A DNA stretch of 5,195 bases from Candidatus Zixiibacteriota bacterium (GTDB taxonomy: Bacteria; Zixibacteria; MSB-5A5; SM1-73). The stretch lies in assembly GCA_023129805.1 (NCBI GenBank), contig JAGMBK010000114.1, positions 1-5,195 of the forward strand. The letters are read 5' to 3'. Both the position numbers and the translations under genes were made by a program. This document shows, one piece after another, positions 25-5,195 of the stretch. The notes under the pieces are model-generated. The model was given only the letters and a program-made list of their open reading frames with translations, searched no databases and had not been told where the DNA came from. Within the stretch, counting starts at the first letter, position 1. Each line of letters opens with the position of its first letter.

Positions 25-1458
25 TCAACTTCTTTTGAGAAAAATGTTCTTGATAGCGGATACCAGCGTCTCATCTTGATGGGAAAAAACGGTTCTTAAA
101 TCCAAAACGAATCTCTCATTTTCAATCCGTCCGATGATAGGAGGAGATTGTTGTCTGAAAAGCTTGGCTTGCTGGTCAGCGGATACCTCAACGGGTGGGT
201 CAACGGTCATTTGACTCAACTGAGATGAAACGGATATTACTATGGTGGGCAGGGTTTCACCGGGGAGGGAGCCTCCCCCTACTGTGCTTTGACTCTTTTG
301 AATGGTAACCTTAATGCCCGATTTTTTTAGCTCATCTGTTATTTTCTCCGCTCTGGTTTGCAAAACCTTCAGTGGAGTGCTGATCATCTGCCAGGCAGGA
401 ATCTTTTTGGTAGCTTCCCCTTTAAGATAGTAAAGCAAAACCCTTTCCAGCCCGGCAAGAAACATCTTGTCCAATCTCAAGGCGCGATGCAGGGGGTGCT
501 TTTTAAGAATATCTATATATCTCCTTTTGCCTAAGATTATCCCCGCTTGAGGCGCCCCCAAAAGCTTATCCCCTGAGAAGCAAACCAAATCCGCATCAGC
601 TGAGACAGCCTCAAAAGCCGTAGGTTCATGCGCCAGCTCGAAATCTTCGGTTCTAAGCAAGACCCCACTTCCCAGATCTTCTGCTACACATAGATTGTGT
701 TTCTTTCCCAACTTGACCAATTCGTTTATGGAGGGTCTCTTCACGAATCCGATCATCTTAAAATTGCTCTGGTGAACTTTAAGCAGAAGTGCAGTTTCCG
801 GGGTGATGGTGTTTTCGTAGTCAGATATGGTGGTCTGGTTAGTGGTCCCCACCTCCTTTAGTTTTGCGCCGCTTAAAGCTAATATCTCGGGAATTCGGAA
901 GCCTCCTCCGATCTGCACCAATTCACCTCTTGAGACTATAACCTCCTTGCCTTTCGCCAACGCGGTTAAGATCAAAAGCACAGCCCCAGCATTGTTATTA
1001 ACAGCTAAGGCGGCTTCTGCTGAGGTTAGAATAGAAAGAAGTCTTTCCACGAAGATTCCTCTTTGGCTCCTTTTCCCTTCCTTCAGATCAAACTCCAGGT
1101 TGTTGTAAGTCGCACTGATATTCTTAATGAAAGACAAAGTATCCTGATCTAACGGAGCCCGCCCCAGGTTAGTATGAAGGATAACTCCGGTGGCGTTGAT
1201 CACCGGCTTTAAAGAGGGAGAGGTTAGTTCAACAGTGATGTTTTTCGCCTTCTGCACTATTTCCTGGGTGGAGATTGTCTCTTTACCCTTTTTCACCTCT
1301 TCCCTTATCATCTCCACCGCCTGTTTGACCGCCAGCGCCACCAGGGGATGAGAGAATTCATCGATGTCAGATTGAAGTTGGGGCGACTCCAAAATCTTTT
1401 CCACACTCGGAATCTGTCTTAATTTCTCCTGGATCACATTTTCACCTGAATCCGGCAT
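25..1458 (-). CDS. selA: L-seryl-tRNA(Sec) selenium transferase (selenocysteine synthase)
   Basis: SelA is a PLP enzyme that converts Ser-tRNA(Sec) to Sec-tRNA(Sec) using selenophosphate, in the cytosol. The 477-aa product is full length (E. coli SelA is about 463 aa, from memory). Visible SelA hallmarks, in order: the N-terminal helical region (about 1-80), INATGVILHTNLGRAPL (about 88-103), VNNNAGAVLL (153-162), SRGELVQIGGGFRIPE (176-191), EVGTTN (202-207), DLGSG (261-265) and FSGDKLLGAPQAGI (294-307), where Lys298 is the expected PLP-binding lysine. The C-terminal part carries GGGSLPGETLP and IIGRIENERFVLDLR. The ATG at 1458 is chosen because GAGG lies 7 nt upstream; it overlaps the end of selD by 25 nt, so translational coupling is likely. 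An alternative GTG at 1437 would give a 4-nt GTGA overlap. Function is very secure; the exact start is less so. Confidence 0.97.
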   Translation of the reverse strand: MPDSGENVIQEKLRQIPSVEKILESPQLQSDIDEFSHPLVALAVKQAVEMIREEVKKGKETISTQEIVQKAKNITVELTSPSLKPVINATGVILHTNLGRAPLDQDTLSFIKNISATYNNLEFDLKEGKRSQRGIFVERLLSILTSAEAALAVNNNAGAVLLILTALAKGKEVIVSRGELVQIGGGFRIPEILALSGAKLKEVGTTNQTTISDYENTITPETALLLKVHQSNFKMIGFVKRPSINELVKLGKKHNLCVAEDLGSGVLLRTEDFELAHEPTAFEAVSADADLVCFSGDKLLGAPQAGIILGKRRYIDILKKHPLHRALRLDKMFLAGLERVLLYYLKGEATKKIPAWQMISTPLKVLQTRAEKITDELKKSGIKVTIQKSQSTVGGGSLPGETLPTIVISVSSQLSQMTVDPPVEVSADQQAKLFRQQSPPIIGRIENERFVLDLRTVFSHQDETLVSAIKNIFLKRS

Positions 1459-2486
1459 TTCTCATCCTCTACTATTTCACCGATCACCATTGAATTGAGC
1501 ACACCCCTGGAGGTCAAAACATCCAAAAGCTTTTTCTCTTTCGCTCTGGAAACTGATATGAGCAATCCTCCGGAGGTTTGAGCATCGGATAGAATCAGTT
1601 TCGCTTCATCGGTAATCTCTTTATCCCAATCGACTTTATTCTGCAAAAATTTAAGATTGGCTAAAGTTCCGGCCGGAACTGCCTTTTGTTTTGCCAGCTC
1701 CCAGGCAAAATCGATCACCCGAACTTTTGATAGATAGATTTTTGCTCCTGTTTTTGAAGCATGAACTAACTCGTGCAAATGGCCCAAAAGCCCATAGCCG
1801 GTGATGTCTGTTGCGGCATTGATACCTACCTCTAACATTGCTTCCGCGGCGGATTTATTTAGAAAAGTCATTATGCTGACAGCTTCTTTCACTACATTTT
1901 GGTCGACTAAATCCTTTTTGATGGCCGTGGTTATGATCCCAATCCCCAAAGGCTTGGTCAATACCAGGGAATCCCCGACTTTAGCATCAGCATTGCTGAT
2001 TATCTTATCCGGATGAATTATCCCGGTTACCGCCATTCCATATAGCGGCTCCTTGGTTTTAAGAGTATGTCCCCCTATTATAACCACATCCGCCTCTTGG
2101 GCTTTGTCTGCGCCTCCTCTTAGGATTTCTTGCACGGCGGATAAAGGCACAGTCGCTTGAGGAAAACCAAGAAGATTCAGAGCCGATAAGGGCTTTCCTC
2201 CCATGGCGTAGACATCACTTAAGGAATTAGCCGCGGCGATTGCTCCGAAATCATAGGGATCATCTACCACCGGCGGAAAAAAATCCACTGTTTGCACCAA
2301 AGCTAAATCTTCTCTGATTTTGTATATACCAGCATCATCCACGGAGTTGAAGCCGACCAACACATTGGGATTATCTATCTTGGGCAAATGACCCAGCACC
2401 TGGGTTAAGTCCTCCGGACCACATTTTGACGCTCACCCAAAACTGGATGCCAGACTGGTCAGTCTGATTTTTTCTTTTGAGTCCAT
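1434..2486 (-). CDS. selD: Selenide, water dikinase (selenophosphate synthetase), selenocysteine-containing
   Basis: SelD makes selenophosphate from selenide and ATP, the selenium donor for SelA. Read from ATG 2486 through an in-frame TGA (2433-2435), the product is 350 aa with Sec at residue 18. The stretch after the start reads RLTSLASSFG-U-ASKCGPEDL, matching SelD N-termini: Sec18 aligns with E. coli Cys17 and Lys21 with Lys20. Downstream come NPNVLVGFNSVDDAG, TVDFFPPVVDDPYDFG, NSLSDVYAMGGKPLSAL, GGHTLK, DITGYGLLGHLHE and LSDAQTSGGLL, all classical for the ATP-binding AIRS/PurM-like fold. Stopping at the TGA, or starting at GTG 2399, would remove the catalytic loop. An in-frame TAA lies just upstream of ATG 2486, which is the only ATG before the motif. 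The Shine-Dalgarno is weak (GAGAAG). selD precedes and overlaps selA. Recoding is inferred from frame conservation, the adjacent selA and the tRNA-Sec, not shown experimentally. Confidence 0.95.
2391..2420 (-). promoter_or_regulatory. Candidate bacterial SECIS (two adjacent hairpins downstream of the Sec codon)
   Basis: Bacterial SECIS elements are coding-region hairpins just 3' of the UGA, recognised by SelB. Two candidates are visible in the selD mRNA. The first pairs GGTCC (2420-2416) with GGACT (2412-2408), including one G-U pair, around loop GGA; the loop begins 17 nt after the UGA, close to the E. coli fdhF spacing. The second pairs ACCCAG (2405-2400) with CTGGGT (2396-2391) around loop GTG; it is 33 nt from the UGA but has the adjacent G-U that SelB contacts in E. 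coli. Which one is used, or whether both stack, cannot be settled by eye. Confidence 0.6.
2433..2435 (-). other. In-frame TGA recoded as selenocysteine (SelD Sec18)
   Basis: The codon sits between GGG and GCG codons in the SelD frame. The residues on both sides (FG before, ASK after) are the conserved catalytic loop of SelD, where other family members carry Cys or Sec. Conservation of the frame on both sides argues for recoding rather than a nonsense mutation. Confidence 0.92.
2451..2466 (-). repeat. Perfect 6-bp hairpin at the 5' end of selD coding sequence
   Basis: CAGACT and AGTCTG pair around a GACC loop in the selD mRNA, about 15 nt before the Sec codon and 18 nt after the start codon. 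Read on the plus strand it is followed by A and six Ts, so it looks like an intrinsic terminator for antisense transcription, although I see no plus-strand gene it would serve. A role in slowing ribosomes near the UGA, or in SelB-type autoregulation, is speculation. Confidence 0.45.
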
Positions 2487-2632: not shown

Positions 2633-2860
2633 CTAAAGATTGTCCATGAACTCCTTTGGAGTGACTTTTGCTTGCCTGAGAATTCCCTTAAGCGTCCCAA
2701 TTTTAAGTTCGGGATGAAGTGGAACTACACAACCTACCTCACCCTCTTTTGTTTGCCTTTTAAGAACCACGTGACTTCCTCGGTGTCTTACTTTTTCAAA
2801 ACCGAGTCTTCTCAAGGCGCGGATGGCTTGATCTCCAGAAACTTTTCGTAACTTAACCAT
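2633..2860 (-). CDS. hicA: HicA-family mRNA interferase toxin (second module)
   Basis: HicA is a small double-stranded-RNA-binding-fold ribonuclease that cleaves mRNA when free of HicB. The 75-aa product has the family layout: KLRKVSGDQAIRALRRLGFE (3-22), then RGSHVVLKR with the catalytic His at residue 30, a hydrophobic strand GCVVPLH, and the C-terminal helix LKIGTLKGILRQAKVTPKEF. ATG 2860 is chosen over an upstream TTG at 2875 because GAGG lies 9 nt before it and the product then starts like other HicAs. It overlaps the hicB stop by 8 nt, the usual coupling for this pair. It differs clearly from the HicA at 4323-4544, so it is not a recent duplicate. Full length with the key His present, so probably functional. 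Confidence 0.9.
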   Translation of the reverse strand: MVKLRKVSGDQAIRALRRLGFEKVRHRGSHVVLKRQTKEGEVGCVVPLHPELKIGTLKGILRQAKVTPKEFMDNL

Positions 2861-3065
2861 CAGATGTAACCTCAAATGTGGTAAGTATAGGTTTCTCGAC
2901 CTTGGTAAGAGGAAACTCCTCTAAGTAAAGTTCTGTGGCTTCTTTGAGGTTGACAATCGCTTCCTCAATTGTATAACCCTGGCTGACCGTTCCCACCTCA
3001 GGACATTCTGCCACATACATATCCTCTTCTTTGTGCAGAACTGCAGTAAAAGTTAGAGTAGCCAT
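2853..3065 (-). CDS. hicB: HicB-family antitoxin (second module)
   Basis: This 70-aa protein is the antitoxin for the HicA it overlaps. It has the HicB partial RNase H-like fold signature: FTAVLHKEEDMYVAECPEVG, then VSQGYTIEEAIVNLKEATEL and YLEE. Longer HicBs carry a C-terminal ribbon-helix-helix or HTH domain; this one ends shortly after the core, with ILTTFEVTSDG, so it lacks an obvious DNA-binding domain and may not autoregulate in the usual way. The start is firm: AGGAG lies 7 nt before the ATG. The gene order hicB-hicA is one of the two known arrangements. A plausible promoter lies just upstream (3086-3114). The operon reads toward selD, 146 nt downstream of hicA, so read-through into selDA is possible. 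Confidence 0.9.
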   Translation of the reverse strand: MATLTFTAVLHKEEDMYVAECPEVGTVSQGYTIEEAIVNLKEATELYLEEFPLTKVEKPILTTFEVTSDG

Positions 3066-3395: not shown

Positions 3396-4217
3396 TTATA
3401 TCTCGATTATCTTTCCCACGCCATTTGAAATGAAATCCTCCTTGTATTCTTCTTTAAACAGTTCTCTGGTTCTATCTCCGGAACAGTGGCAAGGGGCGGC
3501 TTTTTTCACGCCCAACTCCCTGAAGCTTTTTATTATATCTCTTAATTTAGAATCACCAACTCCCCCTAAGTGAAAACCGCCTAAAACCAGATAGATATCC
3601 TCGTTGGTTATCTTTTTAGCTTCTCTTAATATTTCCACAATCCCTGGATGAGCACAGCCGGTAATCACCACCAAGCCCTTTTCTGTTTTCACTATTAAAG
3701 ACTGCTCACCTATCCAGGTGCCCAATTCGCCGGTAGTGCTTACATTTTCATATATCCTTACCGGATCACTCACTTCAACCACATTTGCCTTGTATGATTT
3801 TACCCCATTTTTAAAATCGTTGGGAAATGATTTCAAAAGATAAACACTAAGATTTGAATTGATTTCTAATATCCCTTGCAGTCCGCCGGTATGATCTCCA
3901 TGAATATGTGAGAGCACAATCGTATTTATGGTTTTTGGATCTATACCCAATTTCTGCATATTATAAAGCAAGGTTGAGCTTTCTCCGCCGGTATCAAAAA
4001 GAATATTTTTGTCTTCCACTTTCACCAGACAGGAAAACCCCCATCCTGTCTTCAATTCAGGATTGTGCTCATAGTTGTCATAGAGGGTGATTAAAGTGAC
4101 TTTTGCTTGACTTGATTCCATTTTGATCTTCTCCGTTTTTTTTGTTTTTTTGCAACCCCAAAATGAAATTAACAAAAATATTACGATGAAGGGTATAAAT
4201 GGGAATAACTTTTTCAT
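3396..4217 (-). CDS. Exported metallo-beta-lactamase-fold lipoprotein, COG1237-like
   Basis: A 273-aa metallo-hydrolase. Residues 1-21 form a signal peptide (KK, a long hydrophobic stretch, then SFWG) ahead of Cys22, so it is probably a lipoprotein, though Phe and Trp at -3 and -2 make the lipobox imperfect. The metal site is intact: NILFDTGG (Asp75), LSHIHGDHTGGL with His104, His106, Asp108 and His109, GCAHPG (His190) and GGFHLGG (His216). The C-terminal AAPCHCSGDRTRELF (His244) and the GCAH motif recall the COG1237 group, often annotated as dihydropterin-ribofuranosylaminobenzene-phosphate synthase. The true substrate is unknown; nothing suggests antibiotic resistance. The Shine-Dalgarno is poor. 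The gene is visibly richer in A and T than selA. It lies alone between two hicBA modules with no obvious functional partner. Confidence 0.88.
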   Translation of the reverse strand: MKKLFPFIPFIVIFLLISFWGCKKTKKTEKIKMESSQAKVTLITLYDNYEHNPELKTGWGFSCLVKVEDKNILFDTGGESSTLLYNMQKLGIDPKTINTIVLSHIHGDHTGGLQGILEINSNLSVYLLKSFPNDFKNGVKSYKANVVEVSDPVRIYENVSTTGELGTWIGEQSLIVKTEKGLVVITGCAHPGIVEILREAKKITNEDIYLVLGGFHLGGVGDSKLRDIIKSFRELGVKKAAPCHCSGDRTRELFKEEYKEDFISNGVGKIIEI

Positions 4218-4322: not shown

Positions 4323-4544
4323 TCAAATATTCTTAAGAAACTCTATTTCATCTATCTCTGCGTCTCTCAAAGCACCCTTCAAAGTCCACCTATCGATTTC
4401 CTTATGATCCGGAAATACGATAACCGTTCCGTCTGGACGCTGCATTTTTACATGGCTTCCTTTACGGTGAACCACTTCAAATCCCATCCTCTTTAATGCC
4501 GCTATGACCTGGCGACCGGAAAGAAGCGGTAATTTGGGCTTCAT
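4323..4544 (-). CDS. hicA: HicA-family mRNA interferase toxin (first module)
   Basis: The 73-aa product matches HicA over its length: KLPLLSGRQVIAALKRMGFE (4-23), RKGSHVKMQRPDG with the catalytic His at residue 31, the strand TVIVFPDHKEI, and the C-terminal helix RWTLKGALRDAEIDEIEFL. It would act as a ribonuclease on mRNA, neutralised by its HicB. ATG 4544 is chosen over a TTG at 4559 because it forms a 4-nt ATGA overlap with the hicB stop; translation is likely coupled, since only a weak GAG-type site precedes it. It shares the fold landmarks but little else with the HicA at 2633-2860 (DHKEIDR here versus LHPELKIG there), so the two modules were probably acquired separately and should not cross-neutralise. 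Confidence 0.9.
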   Translation of the reverse strand: MKPKLPLLSGRQVIAALKRMGFEVVHRKGSHVKMQRPDGTVIVFPDHKEIDRWTLKGALRDAEIDEIEFLKNI

Positions 4545-4744
4545 AAATTCAACTCGCAAAGCTTATGTTTTTCGTCTTCGACAACATCTTCAGGGTTCGG
4601 TTCTAAATATAGCTCTATCGCTTCCCGAATATTCTTTAAAGCCTCCTCTTCTGTTTTGCCTTGAGACCAACATCCTTTCAGGGACGGACAATGAGCAACG
4701 ATAAAACCGTCTAACCCTTTTTCTAATACCACCTTTAGCTTCAT
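4541..4744 (-). CDS. hicB: HicB-family antitoxin (first module)
   Basis: A 67-aa HicB core: MKLKVVLEKGLDGFIVAHCP, then LKGCWSQGKTEEEALKNIRE and AIELYLEP, the standard signature of the partial RNase H-like antitoxin domain. The C-terminal tail (NPEDVVEDEKHKLCELNL) is acidic, then short, with no DNA-binding domain, as in the second module. AAGGAG lies 6 nt before the ATG, so the start is secure. The preceding 105 nt contain a 12-bp perfect inverted repeat (4768-4801) that is a candidate operator, and the remnant of a RelE-like toxin gene. The antitoxin gene comes first and overlaps hicA by 4 nt. Confidence 0.9.
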   Translation of the reverse strand: MKLKVVLEKGLDGFIVAHCPSLKGCWSQGKTEEEALKNIREAIELYLEPNPEDVVEDEKHKLCELNL

Positions 4745-4805: not shown

Positions 4806-4850
4806 CTACGAATTCTTTTCGACTCTTCTGGTAAGGATTAATTTATACAT
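4806..4850 (-). pseudogene. 5' remnant of a RelE/ParE-family toxin gene
   Basis: An ATG overlaps the antitoxin stop by one base (TAATG) and opens a frame reading MYKLILTRRVEKNS before TAG. The pattern M-Y-hydrophobic run-T-(K/R)-(K/R)-x-E/Q-K is the typical first strand and helix start of RelE/ParE toxins, and the position directly after a Phd/YefM-like antitoxin is where such a toxin belongs. A whole toxin would be about 80-95 aa. The sequence after the TAG, in any frame, does not look like the rest of RelE; instead the 12-bp inverted repeat and hicBA follow. I infer that most of the toxin was deleted or replaced. The match is short, so it could be chance. Confidence 0.55.
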
Positions 4851-5050
4851 TATCTTTTTACTTTGTATTTCTTTTTAAAATCTTCGAAGGAAATATAATC
4901 GCCTCTTTCTATTTTCTTTCGTTCTTTCTTAAGTTCTTTTGGCAGGTTGGGGTTTTCGGTCAGAAGCTGAATAGTTTCTTTCATGCTTTCATATTCCTTC
5001 AATGAAATTATGACCATTGGTTTGTTGGTTTTTATTGTGATAGTATCCAT
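4850..5050 (-). CDS. Probable Phd/YefM-like antitoxin, now without an intact toxin
   Basis: A 66-aa protein. The N-terminal half (TITIKTNKPMVIISLKEYES) has the strand-then-LxEYE pattern of Phd/YefM-type antitoxins, which bind DNA with this half. The C-terminal half (KELKKERKKIERGDYISFED, then FKKKYKVKR) is the charged, flexible toxin-wrapping segment usual for partners of RelE/ParE toxins. ATG 5050 is chosen, not the longer frame from 5095, because a perfect AAGGAGGT sits 5 nt before it. The partner toxin survives only as 14 codons (4806-4850). An orphan antitoxin may persist as an anti-addiction factor against related toxins. It lies 82 nt downstream of tRNA-Sec. Family assignment rests on pattern only; no fixed catalytic motif exists to confirm it. 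Confidence 0.62.
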   Translation of the reverse strand: MDTITIKTNKPMVIISLKEYESMKETIQLLTENPNLPKELKKERKKIERGDYISFEDFKKKYKVKR

Positions 5051-5055
5051 TTTTA

Positions 5056-5063
5056 ACCTCCTT
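5056..5063 (-). promoter_or_regulatory. Strong ribosome binding site that fixes the antitoxin start
   Basis: AAGGAGGT, fully complementary to the 16S 3' end, stands 5 nt before ATG 5050. It rules out the 15-codon N-terminal extension that would start at 5095. Confidence 0.85.
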
Positions 5064-5132
5064 GCAATTTTGATAACACCTTCAATACAATACAATAGAA
5101 AGACTCAACTTCAACTTATTGAAAAATTTTAG

Positions 5133-5195
5133 CGGAAGGGGTGGGAATCGAACCCACCTCCCCCCGGACCAACCGAGGGGACCACGGATTTGAAG
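5133..5195 (-). tRNA. selC: tRNA-Sec (UCA), 3' part, cut by the window end
   Basis: Visible from the anticodon loop to the discriminator. The loop CTTCAAA carries anticodon TCA (5193-5191), which reads UGA. A long variable arm follows: nine pairs between 5181-5173 and 5167-5159 (one G-U) around a 5-nt loop, diagnostic of class II tRNAs. The T arm is GTGGG-TTCGATT-CCCAC (5157-5141). The acceptor 3' strand is CCCTTCC (5140-5134), then discriminator G (5133); CCA is not encoded. UCA plus a long variable arm, next to selD and selA, identifies tRNA-Sec. The T-stem and acceptor strands total 12 nt, one fewer than the 13 usual for bacterial tRNA-Sec. The 5' half, D arm and promoter are outside the window. 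Confidence 0.93.

Follow-up and report, generated by a model that had tools for sequence, protein, structure and literature searches.

We use 'the window' for the whole 5,195-nucleotide stretch of DNA analysed here. Read along the minus strand, it starts with the 3' part of a tRNA-Sec gene (5195-5134) and continues with a Phd/YefM-like gene (4850-5095; 25.6 bits, Pfam cut-off 29.8 bits), a HicB/HicA-like toxin-antitoxin pair found by the Pfam search (4323-4744), a gene for an MBL-fold hydrolase (3396..4217; PF00753, 54.1 bits), a second HicB/HicA-like pair (2633-3065; HicB 20.1 bits, Pfam cut-off 27 bits), selD (1434..2486) and selA (25..1458). The selA gene, encoding L-seryl-tRNA(Sec) selenium transferase (TIGR00474, 560.5 bits), lies directly downstream of selD and overlaps its end. 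In L001, the closest named relative, an ORF at 7100-7936 that appears by eye to be similar to the MBL-fold gene occupies the same place, so a link between this gene and the selenium genes is possible. The interval between tRNA-Sec and selD in L001 has space for that ORF alone.

The selD reading frame and its annotated start

The selD frame runs on the minus strand from an ATG at 2486-2484, through a single internal TGA at 2435-2433, to a stop TGA at 1436-1434. Read through, it specifies 350 amino acids with Sec at residue 18 and Lys at residue 21. Upstream of the ATG the frame is closed by a TAA at 2507-2505, the nearest in-frame stop, without any ATG, GTG or TTG codon in between. The predicted product is selenide, water dikinase (SelD, selenophosphate synthetase). 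It matches the SelD equivalog model TIGR00476 with 371.2 bits (cut-off 125), the alignment covering model positions 1-309 of 311 and residues 8-315 of the protein. Alignments to the SelD chains 2yye and 3u0o in the PDB (we take the latter to be E. coli SelD) begin at residues 4 and 3, respectively, and both place a Cys opposite U18. The N-terminal motif, G-U18-A-S-K21, fits the G-(U/C)-x-x-K pattern of the family; the Sec or Cys and the Lys are catalytic in the SelD proteins that have been studied. Judged by these alignments, the residues N-terminal to the TGA are SelD sequence. The preliminary description had placed the ATG (2486), the TGA (2433-2435), a downstream GTG (2399), the 29 codons before that GTG and the 350-residue product correctly, and its report of SelD-like residues on both sides of the TGA agrees with family matches that reach well into the N-terminal extension.

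That extension (2400..2486), which holds both Sec18 and Lys21, is missed by standard gene callers. A database search returned 7998 protein matches; the 120 listed have lengths of 302-324 amino acids and query coverages of 85-92%, and each of the five that we inspected (P0001, P0002, P0003, P0005 and P0014) begins after the TGA. P0001 is 100% identical to the window and is exactly the 321-residue form that starts at the GTG (2397..2399), as had been predicted for a standard caller, with the loss of Sec and Lys. The caller was probably drawn to this codon by a GGAGG (2411-2415) lying 11 nt upstream of it. Anyone taking the sequence from the database would thus express or model a SelD that lacks both residues, and the gene adds another clear example of a catalytic residue lost through automatic annotation.

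The codon at position 18 in relatives

Relatives were collected by a scan of GTDB species genomes, from which we used the best 80 of 323 confirmed loci. One of them (L052) was left unmapped, since its match starts only at residue 41. Across the other seventy-nine, the codon aligned to U18 is TGA in fifty-eight, TGC in thirteen and TGT in eight, with no other codon present. The four closest relatives (L001-L004; 87, 81, 66 and 64% identity) are all Candidatus Zixiibacteriota MAGs and all carry TGA. Two further genome searches gave thirty-nine loci, nine from a search of near genomes (eight of which repeat places of the GTDB scan) and thirty from a sample of the phylum; here the codon is TGA in twenty-six, TGT in nine and TGC in four. 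Another forty-eight TGA-containing SelD frames from the phylum sample have their TGA at the U18 position without exception (48/48). Counted by genome, seventy of the eighty Zixiibacteriota genomes in that sample have a TGA-type SelD, with the TGA at the U18 position in 70/70. Because the mapped loci carry only TGA, TGC or TGT there, the match to this codon is not a matter of chance. Relatives with a sense-codon frame excluding the extension would have spoken against Sec, but no mapped relative has any other codon at position 18. One SelD frame (G036:C34:28860-29774, L211) has a TGA at the Sec position plus one TAA further inside.

We also compared the twelve codons 5' of the TGA between the window and individual relatives. 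Synonymous and nonsynonymous differences number 6 and 1 for L001, 4 and 1 for L002, 7 and 1 for L003, 6 and 3 for L004, and 1 and 1 for L098. Such mostly silent change is the pattern expected of translated sequence, the comparisons with L004 and L098 being weak when taken alone.

The selenocysteine machinery and a candidate SECIS hairpin

The tRNA-Sec gene at 5134..5195 has the anticodon TCA and is cut by the end of the window. Its match to RF01852 is accordingly truncated, at 33.6 bits under a gathering score of 47, and ARAGORN reports no complete tRNA in the window. The part that is present is close to the tRNA-Sec of L107. A second Rfam match at the same place, to a plastid element, reached 25.1 bits where the gathering score is 68 and was taken as chance. 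The proximity of selA and tRNA-Sec to selD noted in the preliminary description thus holds, the tRNA gene being partial.

The remaining factor, selB, was sought in relatives. It exceeds the curated cut-off in six of seven near Zixiibacteriota genomes and in two of fourteen control genomes, and only pieces of it are found in G002, the genome of L002. At E <= 0.001 a match is present in 7/7 Zixiibacteriota genomes, but also in 14/14 controls, so only the count over the cut-off is informative. The absence of selB would have argued against Sec; these counts suggest instead that the window's own genome probably encodes it. A tRNA-Sec over the cut-off is present in six of the seven near genomes, the miss being G001, and in 70 of the 80 genomes of the phylum sample, where the search used stricter filters. 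ARAGORN, run on 37 loci from both tRNA-Sec searches, called 35 as SeC and the other two as tRNA-Leu. Gene order in the near genomes is similar in part: one contig of G004 carries tRNA-Sec, selD, a 464-residue ORF of the size of selA, and selB, in that order, and in G003 and G005 tRNA-Sec, selD and selB are grouped around a gap that would fit selA by size. Among the phylum-sample genomes, tRNA-Sec passed the cut-off in 60 of the 70 that have a TGA-type SelD and in all ten that lack one, so the two show no association; gaps in the MAGs may explain the ten TGA-type genomes in which no tRNA-Sec passed the cut-off. A TGA also lies within Fdh-alpha-like frames in 5/5 near genomes and, in one genome, within an FlpD frame; every one of the Fdh-alpha-like matches in relatives scores under the family cut-off, and the family label is approximate.

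The genome without a tRNA-Sec over the cut-off is that of L001, a MAG that has in-frame TGA codons in its selD, FlpD and Fdh-alpha-like frames. Beside its selD (L001:6978-7072) lies a tRNA-Sec-like gene with the anticodon TTA, which ARAGORN labels 'tRNA-Stop'. The available text of PMC10778597 reports tRNA-Sec species for UAA. Coverage of this MAG is about 7x, and at that depth the anticodon is at least as likely to reflect an error or a variant.

Downstream of the TGA, the window contains a candidate bacterial SECIS hairpin, GGUCC-GGA-GGACU (2408..2420), which extends from +13 to +25. Its GGA forms a small apical loop with a G, a feature described for bacterial SECIS elements in the accessible part of PMC1088965; any significance arises at the level of the group. 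Taken by itself, the window hairpin has a synonymous-shuffle p of 0.106, 11.8% of other gene positions score as high (positional fraction 0.118), and the 39-base fold has a z of -0.51. The Rfam search of the window returned no SECIS family among its matches.

The group comparison covered sixty TGA genes (the window, the 58 TGA loci of the GTDB scan and L098) and twenty-one Cys genes. Mean fold z was -1.05 in the former vs +0.21 in the latter (Mann-Whitney p = 1e-4, a guide only because the sequences are related). A simple hairpin detector gave a synonymous-shuffle p below 0.05 in 24/60 TGA genes vs 1/21 Cys genes; for individual relatives, p was 0.044 (L001), 0.058 (L002), 0.026 (L003), 0.056 (L004), 0.074 (L098), 0.194 (L038) and 0.422 (L039). 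A G is present in the loop in 49 of the 59 TGA genes with a hairpin, and the best loops of L003 and L038 lack one. Of 58 distinct TGA genes, 34 have at least four of the five pairs in the stem that joins bases 13-17 to 21-25, vs one of the 21 Cys genes; with the stem slid by one to three bases, the number falls to 0 to 10 of the 58. The mean share of stem pairs is 69% in register, yet 60% when slid by +1; the register was chosen from the window, and the signal partly tracks the conserved GPxDL motif. With these limits, a bacterial SECIS in the window selD is likely.

Interpretation and known systems

We conclude that the gene is almost certainly the Sec-containing SelD of a Candidatus Zixiibacteriota relative, with UGA codon 18 translated as Sec. 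The preliminary description had proposed this decoding, and the codon restricted to Sec or Cys in relatives, the synonymous turnover before the TGA, the selA and tRNA-Sec neighbours and the group hairpin signal all support it. If the UGA were instead a true stop, a functional protein would have to start at GTG 2399, perhaps as a regulatory short form translated from the internal GGAGG. The spacing of that GGAGG and the start of P0001 would suit such a form, but the corresponding codon is GTT in L001-L004 and L098 and GTG in just eight of the sixty TGA genes, the window counted in, which shows that this start is not conserved. Moreover, the short form would lack the Sec or Cys that every mapped relative keeps, and the codons upstream of the TGA evolve as coding sequence. 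The internal start was rejected on the non-conservation of its codon, and we regard it as very improbable.

We give still less credence to the reading of UGA as another amino acid (Trp, Gly or Cys), whether by a change of code or by near-cognate read-through. At this position the mapped relatives use TGA or a Cys codon and never a codon for Trp or Gly, and selD is flanked by selA and a tRNA-Sec with the anticodon TCA. Of the eight genes listed for the window, four end in TGA (selD, selA, the second hicA-like and the second hicB-like), and we therefore rejected a genome-wide reassignment of the codon. A sequencing error, or the decayed Cys codon of a pseudogene, is suggested by the single base that separates TGA from TGC and TGT, but the same TGA recurs in 58 of 79 mapped relatives, from separate assemblies and across phyla, and the selD frame is otherwise intact over its 350 codons. 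This explanation was rejected on the recurrence of the TGA, and its probability is close to nil.

Under Sec decoding, UGA codon 18 would be translated through tRNA-Sec, SelA and SelB, probably with the help of the hairpin beginning 13 nt past the UGA; both the insertion of Sec and the SECIS role of the hairpin are predictions from sequence. Sec18 and Lys21 would then lie in the N-terminal active-site loop, with a predicted role in converting selenide and ATP into selenophosphate, which SelA would use to make Sec-tRNA(Sec).

A SelD of this kind would depend on its own product. The preliminary description took the step further, stating that the pathway must make its own key enzyme by the route it feeds, which was an overreach: a Cys-type SelD is also present in 2/7 near genomes and in 7/70 genomes with a TGA-type SelD. 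Among the near genomes, five of seven have only TGA-type SelD over the cut-off, and a Cys-type copy accompanies it in G001, a fragmented MAG, and in G005, a single contig. In both, the Cys-type protein is a 737-residue fusion (L091:319-2532 and L092:319-2532) whose N-terminal part is NifS-like, a label given by reading the sequence, and it coexists with the Sec-type SelD. In the phylum sample of eighty genomes, sixty-three have only TGA-type SelD over the cut-off, seven have TGA-type together with a long Cys-type, four have Cys-type only and six have none; the long Cys-type frames, of which the SelD part was examined, thus occur in 11/80 genomes, seven of them beside a TGA-type copy. Self-dependent SelD is therefore common in the phylum, as 63/80 genomes have no other type over the cut-off. 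Overall, the original observation is confirmed and its interpretation supported, except for this last inference of self-dependence.

It is conceivable, though we think it unlikely, that the selD UGA acts as a selenium-dependent self-amplifying switch, in which the Cys-type NifS-SelD fusion, where both forms exist, would prime the loop and the Sec form drive it. A 1996 paper reportedly names autoregulation in its title. Zixiibacteriota that carry both a Sec-SelD and a Cys-type NifS-SelD offer a natural setting in which to ask how a self-dependent SelD starts.

Sec-containing SelD proteins have long been known, so the biology is established, and what is new here is the correct annotation of another member. 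According to the available portions of PMC4561486, many species have SPS in the form of a selenoprotein, Sec occurs in 19% of SelD genes of reference prokaryotes and always at the same position, selenoprotein genes are usually misannotated, and RNA analysis brought out bacterial SECIS elements in Sec-SelD genes; two NifS-SPS fusions, one with Sec, are also noted there. In the available text of PMC1794560, SelD with Sec counts among the selenoproteins and may contribute to the maintenance of the Sec trait. The Zixibacteria content found in the literature on Zixibacteria and selenocysteine concerned genome statistics; we make no claim that the gene is missing from print.

As far as those accounts go (PMC4561486, PMC1794560), the window selD resembles bacterial SPS-Sec in having a UGA at the single N-terminal Sec/Cys position, a candidate hairpin downstream and a misannotated start, and probably in having Sec machinery in the genome, represented here by selA and a partial tRNA-Sec in the window and by selB from relatives. 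It differs only in its host lineage, a Zixiibacteriota relative, and in its local order, tRNA-Sec and selD being separated by an MBL-fold gene and toxin-antitoxin-like genes. The NifS-SelD fusions (L091 and L092) have a SelD domain of the same family, but unlike the window selD they carry a NifS-like N-terminal part and a Cys active site and lie at a separate locus. The Cys-SelD of 3u0o shares the family and the N-terminal motif, with its Cys aligned to U18 of the window; because Cys replaces Sec, it needs no recoding.
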